Virus record (IMG/VR): IMGVR_UViG_3300025133_000029
Span: 1 to 64,000 of that record
Strand: one strand, 5' to 3'
DNA: 64,000 nucleotides
Origin: a virus
Positions within the stretch are counted from its first letter, which is position 1. Each line of letters begins with the position of its first letter. The notes beneath the pieces were generated by a model. It made no database searches and was not told where the DNA came from. It saw only the letters and a list, made by a program, of their open reading frames with translations. Below are positions 4,610 to 31,969 of the stretch, one piece after another. Both the position numbers and the translations under genes were made by a program.

Positions 4610-4633
4610 TTTCTGTGTCGATAGGGGGGTGTT

Positions 4634-4670
4634 ATAAAGAGAGTGACTTGCTCCAAGTCACTCTCTTTAT
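4634..4670 (+). terminator. intrinsic terminator, 17-bp stem
   Basis: A 17-bp perfect stem (4634-4650/4654-4670) with a 3-nt CTC loop is followed by GTTTTTG. It separates the Ro-like gene from the next gene. A-rich sequence upstream is weak, so it may work in both directions. Confidence 0.85.
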
Positions 4671-4688
4671 GTTTTTGAAGGAGTTTTT

Positions 4689-10020: not shown

Positions 10021-10075
10021 TAATAATGGGAAGGGGAGATCTTTAGAGTCTAAAGATCTCCCCTTCCCATTATTA
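10021..10075. terminator. 55-bp perfect inverted repeat built around palindrome copy 3
   Basis: Arms of 27 bp are fully complementary (10021-10047/10049-10075) around a single central G at 10048. The inner 17 bp (10040-10056) are the palindrome TCTTTAGA-G-TCTAAAGA. The outer part adds a GGGAAGGGGA/TCCCCTTCCC block. It lies between the E1-like gene and the helicase gene. It could end transcription from either side or serve as an extended protein-binding site. Confidence 0.8.
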
Positions 10076-14175: not shown

Positions 14176-17100
14176 ATGAAGAGTAAACTACCTCAGCCCC
14201 CATTGCCACAGCCTCCTCCGTCATTAGAGGCAACAGCCCACTCTCTTCCTCTTGTTCCTTTGTCGCCTCATTCAGTACCTCCGGAGATGCCTGTTTTTAT
14301 ATCGGCGAATATTCCGGGGTCTGGTAATTCCTTGCCTGTACCGAGCGGAGGAACGGATGGAATGGTTGGTGGGGCGCAACTGGCTAGGAATTCGGTTCAC
14401 CATTTCCCAACACAGCCAGTGGTGGATACCCCATCGCTTAGAGTCGCACCGACATTGCCAGAAAATGTTTGGGCAGAGCCAAAAGCTACAGCGAGTGTTT
14501 TGGATAAGTATCCTTTTCATAGTGAGGTTCAAGATGATATTTTGCGGCTTATGGCAACGAAAAAGCATTTTTCTCGAGCAGCTTTAGATTGGGTTAGACC
14601 TGGATATTTCGAAGGCGACGAGCGTCGAGCATTAGCAGCGACAATGTTAGACTTTTTTAAAGATTATGGATTTCCTCCAACCGAAGGGCAGATGTTCACA
14701 GAGTTGCAGCGGAGAGGGCAGCTTAGTGGTGAACTGAAGGAGAACTTAGAATCTTTAGTGGATAGTGTTTATCGTATTCCTCCAACAACACCAGACTATA
14801 CTGTGGAGGTAGTATCAGAGTTTGCAGAAACCCAGGCTTGGATTTCTGCAGTGTTACGTGCAGGCCCTCTCATCCGGCAAAGAAAATTTTCAGAGATGAA
14901 AAAAATAATGCGGGAAGCAGAGAATATTGGAGGGGTTCTTGAGACGGGCGGGACTTGGTTTTTTGAGGAAACCGAAGAGCGATCCCGACGCAGGAACGAT
15001 GAAGTGCATATTGCTTCTCGTATTATTCCGACAGGTGTTCCAGACCTGGATAGAATCATACGTTATGGTGGACCTGCTAAGGGAGAAGTAGGAATAGTAG
15101 TAGCCAGTACGGGCAAAGGCAAGTGCTTACGAGAAGACACTTGGCTGAGTGTGCCGGGAGGTTACAAACGTCTAGGAGACTTAATAAGAGAAGATATTGG
15201 ATTGGAAGATTTAGAAACAATATCTGAGGGATGGCATCAATTCAACAACCGACCGTTAGTATTTGATGCCAATGGTATTTGTCGTGAAATTGATAAATTC
15301 TATGCTAATGGAAACAAGATTTCTTATTCGGTGACAATGAGGGACGGGATGTCCTTAGTTGGAAGCTCGGAACATCCATTACTTGTAGTGAGGGATGGTA
15401 TCTGGACATGGATAACCATGTCCGAAATAAAAGAGGGAGATGTTGTTGCTTCTTTGCGTGATTCAAAACCTTTTGGTTTGAATTATGATAACGAGGTTTC
15501 GAATAATTTTAGCTTGGGTGGTGATTGGAATATTAGAAAGGGAAAGGAGAAGTTTACTCCTTTGCAGCGGTGGCCGACTAAAGGAAGTTCGGAACTGGCG
15601 GAATGGGTGTCCTTGTTGCTTGCAGAAGGTTATTATAATGCACCTCCAACGGCTCCCTATAGATTATCGTTTACAAATAAAGAAGATGTTCTGATAGATC
15701 GTTTTATATATCTATCACGAGAGTTATTTTCTTTGAATCTTCGGTCAGTTGCATCGGAGGATGGGAGTAAGGTTGTAATAATCGATAGCAAAGCTCTTGT
15801 TCGATATCTTTGTCTAATTGATATTCCTCCCGGACGATCAGCGGACAAGAGAGTACCTGCTTGGATTATGGACGGAGGGGAGGCAATACGGCGATCTTTT
15901 GTTTCAACTTTTTTTACGTGTGAATCGCATGTAAGAGATGACTTTTCGATAGAAATCTCGTCCGCGTCATCAGAAATGATAGAGCAGATACATCTGTTGC
16001 TTCTTTCTGATGGTATTTACTGTCGCTCGTTTGCAAAGCGTGGAACTGCGACAAATGGTCTAGATTTAGAACGTTTATATTTTCGTTTAATTGTTATGGG
16101 GAAAGAAAATCTAAGAAAATATAAGCAAATTGGCTTCATGTCGGGGAGCAATAAGTTTTTTGCTTTCCAAAAAGCATTACAAGCTCCAACATTTTCAAAC
16201 AGCTTAACGAATTTTAGAGATAAAATACATGGAGCACCATCGATATTAAGATCCATCAAGAAAAGAATACAAGAGATGGATTCAACTCCAGGAGGGAGAA
16301 TAAGGAGAGGGCTTGGATTATCGAATCGTCTAGGAAAGCGTATCAGTAATAATTTCAGAGCATCTATAGATCGGAATAGTGTTTCTTATGATTTCTGTTT
16401 GGAAATACTATCTGGATGCTCCAAAATTGAAGATGAGAAACTTCAAGGTTTATTGCAGGAGTTGAGATTATTAATTCGGTATAGAATGATTGAAGTTATA
16501 GATGTGCAAAGGACTCGGTGCTTTACCTATGACATAGAGGTCCCAGATTCTCATCATTTTATTGCCAATTCCTTTGTTTCACACAATTCGATCGCCCTTG
16601 GTCAGTTTGCTAGGAGAGGGGTCTGGGAAGGTGAAAATGTAGCTATTTTCTCTGGTGAGATGTCAGAAGAGAAATTCTCAGATCGTCTTGACGCAGCCTT
16701 CACAGGTTTGCGTATGAACGAGATTGGAAACGAAGAAGAGTTCCTTTCTCGCATGGAGATATTGCGCACACGTTTCAAGAAAAAGCTTTGGATTCGAAGG
16801 TTTCCAACAAAAGGTGCATCTATTGGGGATTTGAGAGCGTCGTTAGAGTCCATGAGGAGGGAAGGTTGGACTCCGGGTATGATTATTTTGGACTATGCAG
16901 CCTTAGTTAAGCCAGAGGTATCGAGAGATCAGAGGCATACCGAGATTCAGGAGATCCTTCAGGCTTTTAGGGGATTGTGTATTGATTTCGACGCAGTGGG
17001 TTGGACTGCACTTCAAGCATCTCGCCAAGGTGAGAAAGCATATATTATTAAGGGTGATCATGTTGCAACGTCTTGGGATAGTTTGGGGGATGCAGATTAT

Positions 17101-17247
17101 ATTTTCTCCATCAACATGACGGATGATGAGAAAGTCGCAAACCAGTTGCGTTTGTATATTATCAAAAACAGAGATGGGGATATGTCACGGATCACGATTG
17201 GTCCCTTGCAATCGGATTATGCGAGGATGTGTTTTGTTAAGATTTGA
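14176..17247 (+). CDS. DnaB-type replicative helicase, intein-containing
   Basis: Encodes a 1023-aa precursor, 535 aa after splicing. Residues 1-95 are Pro-rich; about 112-205 resemble the DnaB N-terminal helical domain. The P-loop A-S-T-G-K-G-K (310-316) is interrupted by an intein at residues 317-804. After splicing the loop continues as GK-SIALGQ. Downstream are FSGEMSEE (after Walker A), the Walker B IILDYAALV and TALQASRQG, typical of DnaB/RecA-like hexameric helicases. It would unwind DNA at the fork with the primase at 17636. SD AGGG upstream; palindrome copy 4 sits just before the gene. Confidence 0.9.
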   Translation: MKSKLPQPPLPQPPPSLEATAHSLPLVPLSPHSVPPEMPVFISANIPGSGNSLPVPSGGTDGMVGGAQLARNSVHHFPTQPVVDTPSLRVAPTLPENVWAEPKATASVLDKYPFHSEVQDDILRLMATKKHFSRAALDWVRPGYFEGDERRALAATMLDFFKDYGFPPTEGQMFTELQRRGQLSGELKENLESLVDSVYRIPPTTPDYTVEVVSEFAETQAWISAVLRAGPLIRQRKFSEMKKIMREAENIGGVLETGGTWFFEETEERSRRRNDEVHIASRIIPTGVPDLDRIIRYGGPAKGEVGIVVASTGKGKCLREDTWLSVPGGYKRLGDLIREDIGLEDLETISEGWHQFNNRPLVFDANGICREIDKFYANGNKISYSVTMRDGMSLVGSSEHPLLVVRDGIWTWITMSEIKEGDVVASLRDSKPFGLNYDNEVSNNFSLGGDWNIRKGKEKFTPLQRWPTKGSSELAEWVSLLLAEGYYNAPPTAPYRLSFTNKEDVLIDRFIYLSRELFSLNLRSVASEDGSKVVIIDSKALVRYLCLIDIPPGRSADKRVPAWIMDGGEAIRRSFVSTFFTCESHVRDDFSIEISSASSEMIEQIHLLLLSDGIYCRSFAKRGTATNGLDLERLYFRLIVMGKENLRKYKQIGFMSGSNKFFAFQKALQAPTFSNSLTNFRDKIHGAPSILRSIKKRIQEMDSTPGGRIRRGLGLSNRLGKRISNNFRASIDRNSVSYDFCLEILSGCSKIEDEKLQGLLQELRLLIRYRMIEVIDVQRTRCFTYDIEVPDSHHFIANSFVSHNSIALGQFARRGVWEGENVAIFSGEMSEEKFSDRLDAAFTGLRMNEIGNEEEFLSRMEILRTRFKKKLWIRRFPTKGASIGDLRASLESMRREGWTPGMIILDYAALVKPEVSRDQRHTEIQEILQAFRGLCIDFDAVGWTALQASRQGEKAYIIKGDHVATSWDSLGDADYIFSINMTDDEKVANQLRLYIIKNRDGDMSRITIGPLQSDYARMCFVKI
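15124..16587 (+). mobile_element. intein in DnaB P-loop, LAGLIDADG-like
   Basis: 488 residues. The N-terminal splice residue is Cys317, followed by LREDTWLSVPGG. The C-terminal end is HHFIANSFVSHN with Ser805 as the +1 residue, so all splicing residues are present. The GSSEHPLLVV block is the usual TxxH-type motif. Two degenerate LAGLIDADG-like stretches (LLLAEGYY and a later FVSTFFTCES) suggest a decayed homing endonuclease, because the second acidic motif is altered. Splicing is needed to rebuild Walker A. Confidence 0.9.
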
Positions 17248-29404: not shown

Positions 29405-29446
29405 AGAGGTTGTGAAGAAGAATATTCTTCGCAGCCTCTTTTTTTT
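29405..29446 (+). terminator. intrinsic terminator
   Basis: A 15-bp stem (AGAGG... 29405-29419 with ...CCTCT 29425-29439, two G-U pairs) and a 5-nt loop are followed by eight T. It separates the SSB gene from recA; the recA SD begins right after the T run. Confidence 0.85.
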
Positions 29447-29460
29447 AGGAGAATTTGAGC

Positions 29461-31539
29461 GTGGCGAAAAAAAGAAAAAAAAGCAGCAGTGCTCCTGCTT
29501 CTCCCAGTCCAGGAGTTATGGACAGAGATACAGCATTGCACTTAGCAATCTCATCGGTCGAAAAGCAGTTTGGCAAGGGAGCTATTTATCGTTTGGGTGA
29601 CGATGGATCCGAACAGCGATCGAAGATAGATACTGTTTCAACAGGAAGCATTACTCTTGACAAGGCTTTGACTGTGGGAGGATACCCTCGGGGTCGTGTC
29701 ATTGAGGTGTTTGGTCCGGAAGCATGTTTAGATGGTGATACTTTTATCCAGTACACTGTTTGGGGTGCAGATGGGAAGAGGGTTAATCATAAAGGGGGGA
29801 CCATACGCAGGCTATGGGAGAGATTCCACGGAAAGTCTGCATCAGGAGATGGTAGGGGTAAAAAATATCTCCATCCTTCTTCTATTGGAGTAACGTTCAC
29901 GGCACCTTGTGTTAACGAAGAAAACTGTATCTTTCACAACAATATCATTGATGTTGTGCAGACGGGTTCGAAGGAGTGCTATGAATTAACAACGGTTGGT
30001 GGATCTGTCATTGTTGCGACAGAAGACCACAAGTTTTTCACGGGGGAACAATGGGTTGCTTTGTCAGACTTGAATCCCGGTGATACTCTTATGATTCACA
30101 ACAATACTCCCTTTCGAGCGAGTGATAGTTGTTGTGATGAGGATGAAAAAGAATATCGCAAGTATGTTCATGTGCGTCATCATCCAGTTGGGGGAAAGAA
30201 GATGGTGAGGGAGAGGGTGTCGAGGACGGATCCTAGTTTGTTCCGTGAGTATGAATATAGAAGACTGTCTATTGCTAGGGTGGTGGTGGAAGCTTCTATG
30301 AATAATCTTTCTTATGAAGAATATATAGAAAGATTAAATTCTGGAGATTTGGATGGACTTTCATTCTTAGAAAGGGATGACCACGTTCATCATCTAGATG
30401 AAAATATCACGAACAATGATCTGAACAATCTGTTAGTTATGTCAGCTTCGGAGCATTCCCGGCTACGTGCTTTGGATAGACATAACAACCTTCGCTTCAG
30501 GGTCTTGGAAGATCAAGTCTTTTCGATAGTTCCAGTTGGTCTCAGAGAGACATATGATATTAAAATGGAAAATCCATTTAATAACTATGTTGCCAATGAG
30601 TTTGTTGTCCACAATAGCGGGAAAACCACCATTTGCTTGCATGCTATCGCCTCGGTTCAACGATTGGGTGAGGTGGCAGCGATTGTGGATGCAGAGCATG
30701 CTTTGGATATGAAGTATGCGCGTCATTTGGGAGTAGACGTTGATAATCTTTTAGTTTCCCAACCTGACTACGGGGAGCAAGCACTGGAGATAGTAGAGAC
30801 ACTGATGCGATCGTCAGCCGTATCGTTGATAGTGGTGGATTCAGTCGCTGCTTTGGTTCCGAGGGCAGAGATAGAGGGTGATATGGGTGACTCTCATGTT
30901 GGATTGCAAGCGAGACTGATGTCTCAGGCTTGTAGGAAGCTTGCGGGTTTGGCTAATTCGACTGGGACCATTCTATACTTCACAAATCAACTCAGAATGA
31001 AGATTGGTGTTCAGTGGGGGAATCCTGAGACAACGACGGGCGGGAACGCTTTAAAATTCTATGCTTCTGTTCGTCTCGATGTGAGAAGGATAGGAAAACT
31101 GAAGAGTGGTGATGAGCTAAAGGGACACCGCGCACGAATAAAGGTTGTAAAAAACAAGGTAGCTCCACCGTTCCAAGAAGCAGAGGTAGATATTGTCTAC
31201 AACCGGGGAATCGCTCCTGAGATGGAGATATTGAATCTTGGAGTAGACTTAGGAATTCTTGAGAAAAAAGGTGCTTACTTTTCATATGATGGAGAAAACA
31301 TCGGGCAAGGAAAGTTCAGGGCGGCAGATCATTTGCTTTCCCAACCGGAATTATTCCAAACTCTTTACAATCTTGTAAGGAATGCATGTTTGAGTGAGTC
31401 TTTTGATGAAGAAGTGCCGACACTCCCAACAATTCCAATCCCAGATCAAGAGATTCGGCCTTTGCCTGTTGTTCCTCCTCGACCGAACGGTGCAAATGGT
31501 TCGGATTCAGGTGGTGGCAAGGTTCCAACACCAAAATAG
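29461..31539 (+). CDS. recA: RecA recombinase, intein-containing
   Basis: Encodes a 692-aa precursor, about 395 aa after splicing. GTG 29461 is 9 nt after AGGAG; TTG 29455 is too close. The N-extein has [10 protein letters not shown] and VSTGSITLD, then FGPEA. After the intein it resumes [12 protein letters not shown], giving a complete P-loop. Later come [23 protein letters not shown] and the Q..R.MSQA...L loop 2 region with a TNQLRMKIG segment. The C-terminus is Pro-rich. It drives strand exchange with the UvsY-like and SSB proteins upstream. Confidence 0.95.
29725..30615 (+). mobile_element. intein in RecA P-loop with HNH endonuclease
   Basis: 297 residues. Starts at Cys89 ([10 protein letters not shown]), has a [11 protein letters not shown] block, and ends [12 protein letters not shown] before Ser386. 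An HNH-type nuclease sits inside: the HVHHLDEN block near residue 308, followed by [15 protein letters not shown]. This suggests an active homing element. The insertion lies between A and S of the P-loop GPEA-SGKTT, so unspliced protein cannot bind ATP. Confidence 0.92.
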
Positions 31540-31552
31540 TTCTTGCTTTGGT

Positions 31553-31606
31553 CTTCAATCTCCTTATTTTTATTTTTGGCTTTTATAGAAAATAAGGAGA
31601 TTGAAG
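31553..31606 (+). promoter_or_regulatory. 18-bp hairpin sequestering the groES Shine-Dalgarno
   Basis: The left arm 31553-31570 (contains TCTCCTTA) pairs perfectly over 18 bp with 31589-31606 (contains AAGGAG). The loop is 18 nt. The right arm ends one base before the groES ATG, so the SD is fully buried. No T run follows, which argues against an ordinary terminator. Confidence 0.75.
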
Positions 31607-31607
31607 A

Positions 31608-31910
31608 ATGAAATTCAGACCTCTGGGAGACAGGTTGGTTGTGCGTCGTGATGCCCCGGAAGATGTTACGCCGGGTGGCCTCATTATGCCGACTAACGAA
31701 GAAAAGCAGACGGGCGTTGTGTTGTCGGTCGGGAGAGGAACGGTTCTGGAGGATGGAGCCATTCGTCCTCTTGATGTTTCTGTGGGGGACCGTGTCCTCT
31801 TCTCGAAGTATGGTGGAACAGACATCAAAATTGATGGGGATGGGGTTATCATCTTTCGAGAGGCAGATCTCTTGGGAGTGTTTGAGGAATCTTCGGATGT
31901 AGGCGAATAA
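31608..31910 (+). CDS. groES: GroES-like co-chaperonin (Hsp10)
   Basis: Encodes 100 aa. It has the full GroES layout: FRPLGDRLVVRR at the start, a mobile-loop region GGLIMPTNEEKQT with GVVLSVGRG, then VGDRVLFSKYGGTDIKIDG and a late FREADLLGV strand. Length is normal. It would cap host GroEL (or a phage GroEL elsewhere) to fold phage proteins such as the capsid; no groEL lies in this window. Its SD is buried in an 18-bp hairpin. A terminator follows the gene, so it forms a single-gene unit. Confidence 0.95.
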   Translation: MKFRPLGDRLVVRRDAPEDVTPGGLIMPTNEEKQTGVVLSVGRGTVLEDGAIRPLDVSVGDRVLFSKYGGTDIKIDGDGVIIFREADLLGVFEESSDVGE

Positions 31911-31941
31911 CTAGTCGATGTTTTTTTGATTCCTTTTTGTA

Positions 31942-31969
31942 GGGTGCTTCTTTGAGGCACCCTTTTTTT
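31942..31969 (+). terminator. intrinsic terminator after groES
   Basis: GGGTGC/GCACCC stem with a 9-nt loop, followed by seven T. Confidence 0.9.

Follow-up and report, generated by a model that had tools for sequence, protein, structure and literature searches.

How can a phage gene be expressed when the site at which its translation should begin is folded into a perfect helix, and what would such a fold be for? The question is raised by groES in an uncultured phage, represented by a virus record of 161,002 bases, whose bases 1-64000 form the stretch of DNA under study (the window). The gene (31608-31910, + strand) encodes a Cpn10 protein of 100 amino acids (Pfam PF00166, E = 2.2e-24; PHROG 3188, E = 3.4e-22) and is intact, with a well conserved sequence. 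No GroEL was found in the record, and the phage GroES would partner the GroEL of the host. Among 39 left-half proteins scanned, one contains a DnaJ domain (E = 3e-7) and so adds a further chaperone-type gene to groES.

The groES start codon (ATG at 31608) follows directly on the last base, 31607, of an exact inverted repeat. The left arm, TCTTCAATCTCCTTATTTT (31552-31570, + strand), is an anti-RBS sequence that starts 12 nt past the recA stop codon, and the right arm, AAAATAAGGAGATTGAAGA (31589-31607, + strand), holds the AAGGAG Shine-Dalgarno (SD) sequence of groES at 31594-31599. The arms lie 18 nt apart and form 19 of 19 Watson-Crick pairs with zero mismatches, bulges or G-U pairs; in RNA, U31571 and G31588 can add a closing U-G pair, giving 20 pairs in total and a 16-nt loop. 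From sequence and fold, the loop region TATTTTTGGCTTTTATAG (31571-31588, + strand) contains the start of a TATAGAAA-like element (31584-31591). The isolated hairpin has an energy of -24.5 kcal/mol at 37 C in the folding model, and the RNA fold offers a possible side extension, UUUG/UGAA, with 4 further pairs beyond a bulge. A preliminary description of this locus had placed an 18-bp helix at 31553-31606, which is indeed perfect, covers AAGGAG and ends before the start codon, but was drawn one pair short of the 19 pairs at 31552-31607. As a predicted stable helix over the SD, the groES hairpin is by structural definition an RBS-sequestering hairpin. It was also considered as an intrinsic terminator and rejected, there being no U-run and the stem being followed by AUGAAAUUC; an assembly fold-back artefact was ruled out because the repeat is internal to the contig and is flanked by two genes that are intact and unrelated.

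The length of this helix is well beyond what base composition would produce. The longest perfect stem in each of 20 simulated genomes of 161 kb (order-2 Markov model of the record, loops of 3-80) was 11-14, and the fold of the hairpin had a z-score of -3.35 against 200 dinucleotide shuffles, with 0 of 200 equally stable. Apart from the TCTTTAGANTCTAAAGA palindrome-array repeats it is the longest perfect hairpin of the record, where the comparable or longer perfect repeats are members of that array plus one 17-bp terminator-like hairpin. Being so far above chance length, the hairpin needs explaining by recent inverted duplication, by selection, or by both.

To express its strength on a common scale, we calculated an opening cost, defined as the energy needed in the folding model to make positions -15 to +3 around a start codon single-stranded; all energies given here are model values from which ribosomes and proteins are left out. 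At 22.3 kcal/mol, the groES start region ranks first among the 154 called genes of the phage (second, 16.8; median, 6.2), which bears out the earlier claim that its SD is blocked by an exceptionally strong hairpin. The same model gives 16.8 kcal/mol for the lysozyme gene e of phage T4 and only 7.5 for T4 soc with this simple window; not every known case thus scores high on the measure. Across 45 viral groES loci from IMG/VR, a set in which some contigs are near-identical or perhaps host DNA called viral, the median was 3.7 and the maximum 10.6 kcal/mol. The absence of such a lock from these 45 loci indicates that it is particular to this phage and not typical of viral groES, and a search of ten annotated phage or phage-labelled groES loci for a similar lock likewise returned nothing alike.

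What the hairpin can do depends on the mRNA that carries it. Upstream lies recA (29455-31539, + strand; stop TAG at 31537-31539), in which an HNH-containing intein interrupts the protein inside the Walker A motif (GPEA / SGKTT); GTG at 29461, behind AGGAG, is the more likely start, judged from the position of the Shine-Dalgarno sequence. The recA stop and the groES ATG are 68 nt apart. A terminator scan detected an intrinsic terminator just ahead of the recA RBS (29405-29439, + strand) and another 3' of groES (31941-31963, + strand; 10 pairs, 6 of them GC, then TTTTTT), and found none between recA and groES. Hence recA and groES probably share a transcript, with groES in second place, and the earlier view of it as an isolated unit with its own terminator holds for the downstream side only, since no terminator separates it from recA. 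Given the usual footprint of a ribosome, the leading edge of one terminating on recA falls just before 31552; with the recA stop 12 nt before the helix, translation of recA should therefore not open the hairpin. An alternative genetic code with TAG as an amino acid was rejected, long ORFs stopping on TAG as often as on TAA, and the standard code was kept.

Several other genes have an intrinsic-terminator-like hairpin with a T-run that ends about 20-50 nt before the start codon (29405-29439, 4633-4671, about 2595-2635 and others). Lying so near the start codons, these leave little promoter room, which suggests read-through, antitermination or RNA processing. The stems of such hairpins normally exclude the Shine-Dalgarno; at groES the stem contains it.

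The explanation that we put first, tentatively and at a little under even confidence, is a cis-acting translational lock: groES would stay silent on mRNA that spans recA, and messages without the left arm would escape the block. The lock itself is well supported by the sequence and the folding model: on any mRNA running through recA the left arm would pair with the groES RBS and turn groES off. The modelled probability that the SD is unpaired is 0.0006 for transcripts starting at 31300-31540, which agrees with the preliminary description that so strong a block needs an opener or a bypass. Removal of the left arm frees the SD in the model, its unpaired probability rising to 0.69 for a transcript start at 31571 and 0.87 for one at 31590. 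groES would then be translated only from messages with a 5' end in the loop or downstream of it. Such mRNAs probably exist, and a bypass through them is the most likely mechanism; they would most likely come from later-stage transcription initiating inside the hairpin, as for T4 e, soc, 49 and I-TevI, and cutting of the helix would be an alternative route to them. The purpose of the lock would be timing.

The closest precedent is found in T4, where, as reported in PMC3014915, RBS-sequestering hairpins silence the long early transcripts of e, soc, 49 and I-TevI, and later transcripts start inside the hairpin from internal late promoters; for gene e the structure lowers lysozyme synthesis about 100-fold. 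Both cases concern a phage gene whose SD would lie in a helix formed only in upstream-initiated transcripts (PMC3014915), and the opening cost of groES is of the same order as that of gene e or higher (22.3 versus 16.8 kcal/mol). The loop offers a further likeness: the TATA-like element TATAGAAA (31584-31591) precedes the GAG of the SD by five bases and matches TATAAATA of gene e at 6 of 8 positions with the same spacing, a resemblance between sequences that is suggestive only. In contrast to the T4 class, the target here is a co-chaperonin and not a lysis, capsid or homing gene, the helix is perfect and roughly double the length, a T4-type late promoter consensus and a known late sigma factor are both missing, and the capsid protein resembles that of SPO1 and not that of T4. 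On its structure, we assign the hairpin to the general RBS-sequestering kind, with the T4 gene e class as a candidate only. The preliminary description had taken a 5' end of the transcript within or beyond the left arm as evidence against the idea; such a 5' end would leave a function intact, because T4 gene e works exactly so (PMC3014915). T4 gene 31 also encodes a GroES-like co-chaperonin and is comparable in that the present phage encodes a GroES-type protein with no GroEL in the record, but no RBS lock is given for gene 31 in the part of PMC3014915 consulted.

Searches for the promoters and regulators that such a scheme would involve gave the following. No sigma-70-type promoter reached the scan threshold in the recA-groES spacer, and an EM search for a shared promoter motif upstream of left-half genes gave nothing clearly over shuffled controls except T-runs. 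An early promoter in the spacer was rejected, as the right-half early-type motif GTAAATGCTCTG..TTTTTTATA is absent there. No sigma-70 region 2 protein was found in the record, and no T4-late-type transcription factor was named among the scanned proteins, which cover part of the ORFs. Elsewhere, the motif [CG]GTAAATGCTCTGCTTTTTTATACATGTGAA, which resembles an early promoter, is found in dozens of copies on both strands at about 106000-161002 of the record, many lying 53-60 nt before small-gene start codons; it is rare or absent in the left half.

The left arm could also be removed after transcription, by host RNase III cutting the 20-bp helix of the recA-groES mRNA, separating the two messages and freeing the groES SD. 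We regard this as unlikely, though it is the alternative that survives best. A perfect, uninterrupted duplex suits a dsRNA nuclease and exceeds the pairing that a simple lock needs, and RNase III relief of RBS occlusion is documented for E. coli adhE and lambda cIII, which share with groES an RBS occluded by secondary structure and a long duplex (PMC5371410). However, 20 pairs fall just below the 22-nt minimum duplex quoted for RNase III in that paper, although the UUUG/UGAA side extension could lengthen the helix; no RNase III homologue was found in the record, so a host enzyme would be required, and cleavage is hypothetical here.

Next in order, unlikely as well and still a serious rival given its perfect arms and RBS-like right arm, is that the hairpin has no regulatory role and arose recently, by template switch, as an inverted duplicate of the RBS beside itself, which lowers groES expression and is neutral or being lost. 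That 19 pairs carry no G-U or mismatch suggests a recent origin, and the right arm resembles ordinary RBSs of the phage (AAATAAGGAGATT at 120262, TAAGGAGATTGA at 92518), so that the left arm looks like its inverted copy; the hairpin is, moreover, unique in the record and missing from other viral groES genes. Against a functionless duplication stand the intact, well conserved groES and the placement of the inverted copy, which covers the SD, ends right before the ATG and starts cleanly after recA, and a recent origin is in any case compatible with function.

Opening in trans, by a phage or host protein or by an RNA partner of the left arm or loop that would unlock groES as folding demand rises, appears quite improbable. 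A strong lock with a 16-nt loop would make a landing place for an opener, and T4 exerts protein-RNA control at several start regions (PMC3014915). Yet no binder of the hairpin is known, no complement of the loop of at least 11 bases occurs elsewhere in the record, and the right arm has no copy longer than 13 nt at other places in the record, a length that shuffled arms also reach; an unlocking RNA was accordingly rejected, no complement in the record being above chance.

Ribosomes could themselves open the lock if readthrough of the recA UAG melted the helix and led to re-initiation on groES at ATGA, which would tie chaperone output to a rare event. The recA frame does remain open past its TAG (31540-31611, + strand) to a TGA at 31609-31611 that overlaps the groES ATG, an arrangement that is probably fortuitous, and we consider this route very unlikely. 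Slightly more doubtful still is that the repeat acts as DNA and not as RNA, as a protein-binding palindrome or replication element: its perfect symmetry holds in DNA too and the phage carries a genome-wide DNA palindrome array, but the repeat is single and unlike the array motif, its arms are parted by an 18-nt spacer, and its edges fit an RBS and not a binding site.

The lead offered by the preliminary description, an RNA thermometer in which heat melts the hairpin and switches on the chaperone gene, fares worst and is in our judgment scarcely credible. Chaperone genes are the usual targets of thermometers, and Salmonella groES has one (PMC4166951), with the same target gene and a sequestered SD; in contrast, the phage helix is perfect and does not melt in the biological range, whereas thermometers rely for sensing on pairs that are weak or non-canonical (PMC4166951), of which this helix has none. 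In the model, the accessibility of the SD climbs from 0.06% at 37 C through 0.09% at 42 C and 0.7% at 65 C to 11% at 90 C, staying below 1% up to 65 C, and the tRNA G+C of 44-60% with an IVYWREL value of 0.40 points to a mesophile-like phage; with the site shut past 65 C in the model, heat cannot be the opener. Rfam thermometer families (ROSE, FourU and others) gave no match at threshold, the weak matches, all below cut-offs, being mostly to generic miRNA-type models and otherwise to other unrelated models.

For a covariation test of the arms, relatives with the recA-groES arrangement were sought in viral contigs with the groES, recA, 402-aa neighbour, capsid and terminase proteins, with arm and palindrome DNA patterns and among palindrome-sharing fragments, and none was found. 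The best relative is a 23-kb fragment with a terminase 56% identical, which has no recA-groES between the helicase and an SbcD-like gene. Exact 17-base arm matches in viral contigs were mostly those expected as chance, and a two-copy arm match (L050) looked like unrelated sequence.

The record has other features of note. The near-perfect palindrome ATCTTTAGA-N-TCTAAAGAT occurs at 54 sites across the 161-kb record, mostly intergenic and about every 3 kb (in the window, at 2494, 6455, 10040, 14136, 17302, 22596, 26552, 31979, 36881, 42596, 44711, 46235, 48894, 51049, 54312, 59163 and 61335), often with longer perfect arms of up to 27 bp (10021-10075). It resembles an array of DNA-binding sites, such as multiple operators or partition sites. 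The same array is present in a further two viral contigs, 65.9 and 25.4 kb long, whose proteins have no detectable homology with those of the record, and a distant relative carries the variants ACTTTAGATTCTAAAGT and AGTTTAGACTCTAAACT, which are still palindromic. The DnaB-type helicase (14176-17247) contains an insertion of ~485 residues that bears the C-terminal splicing signature of an intein and is missing in the relative on L120. A tRNA at 2096-2238, with an anticodon that is apparently TTC (Glu), has ~70 nt extra between the anticodon arm and the T arm and was detected by Rfam and missed by ARAGORN; a tRNA-like gene at 202-276, read as Ile(AAT), has a badly paired acceptor stem and is perhaps decayed.

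The RBS-hairpin lock is a strong but already known kind of phage switch; what is unusual here is its target and the length of the perfect helix. If the reading of the hairpin as a lock bypassed on mRNAs without the left arm is right, a phage co-chaperonin would be under a message-dependent lock like those of the T4 lysis and homing genes, with a helix stronger than that of gene e in the same model. The locus would then serve as a simple reporter for the switch from the recA-type to the groES-type transcript in this phage group.
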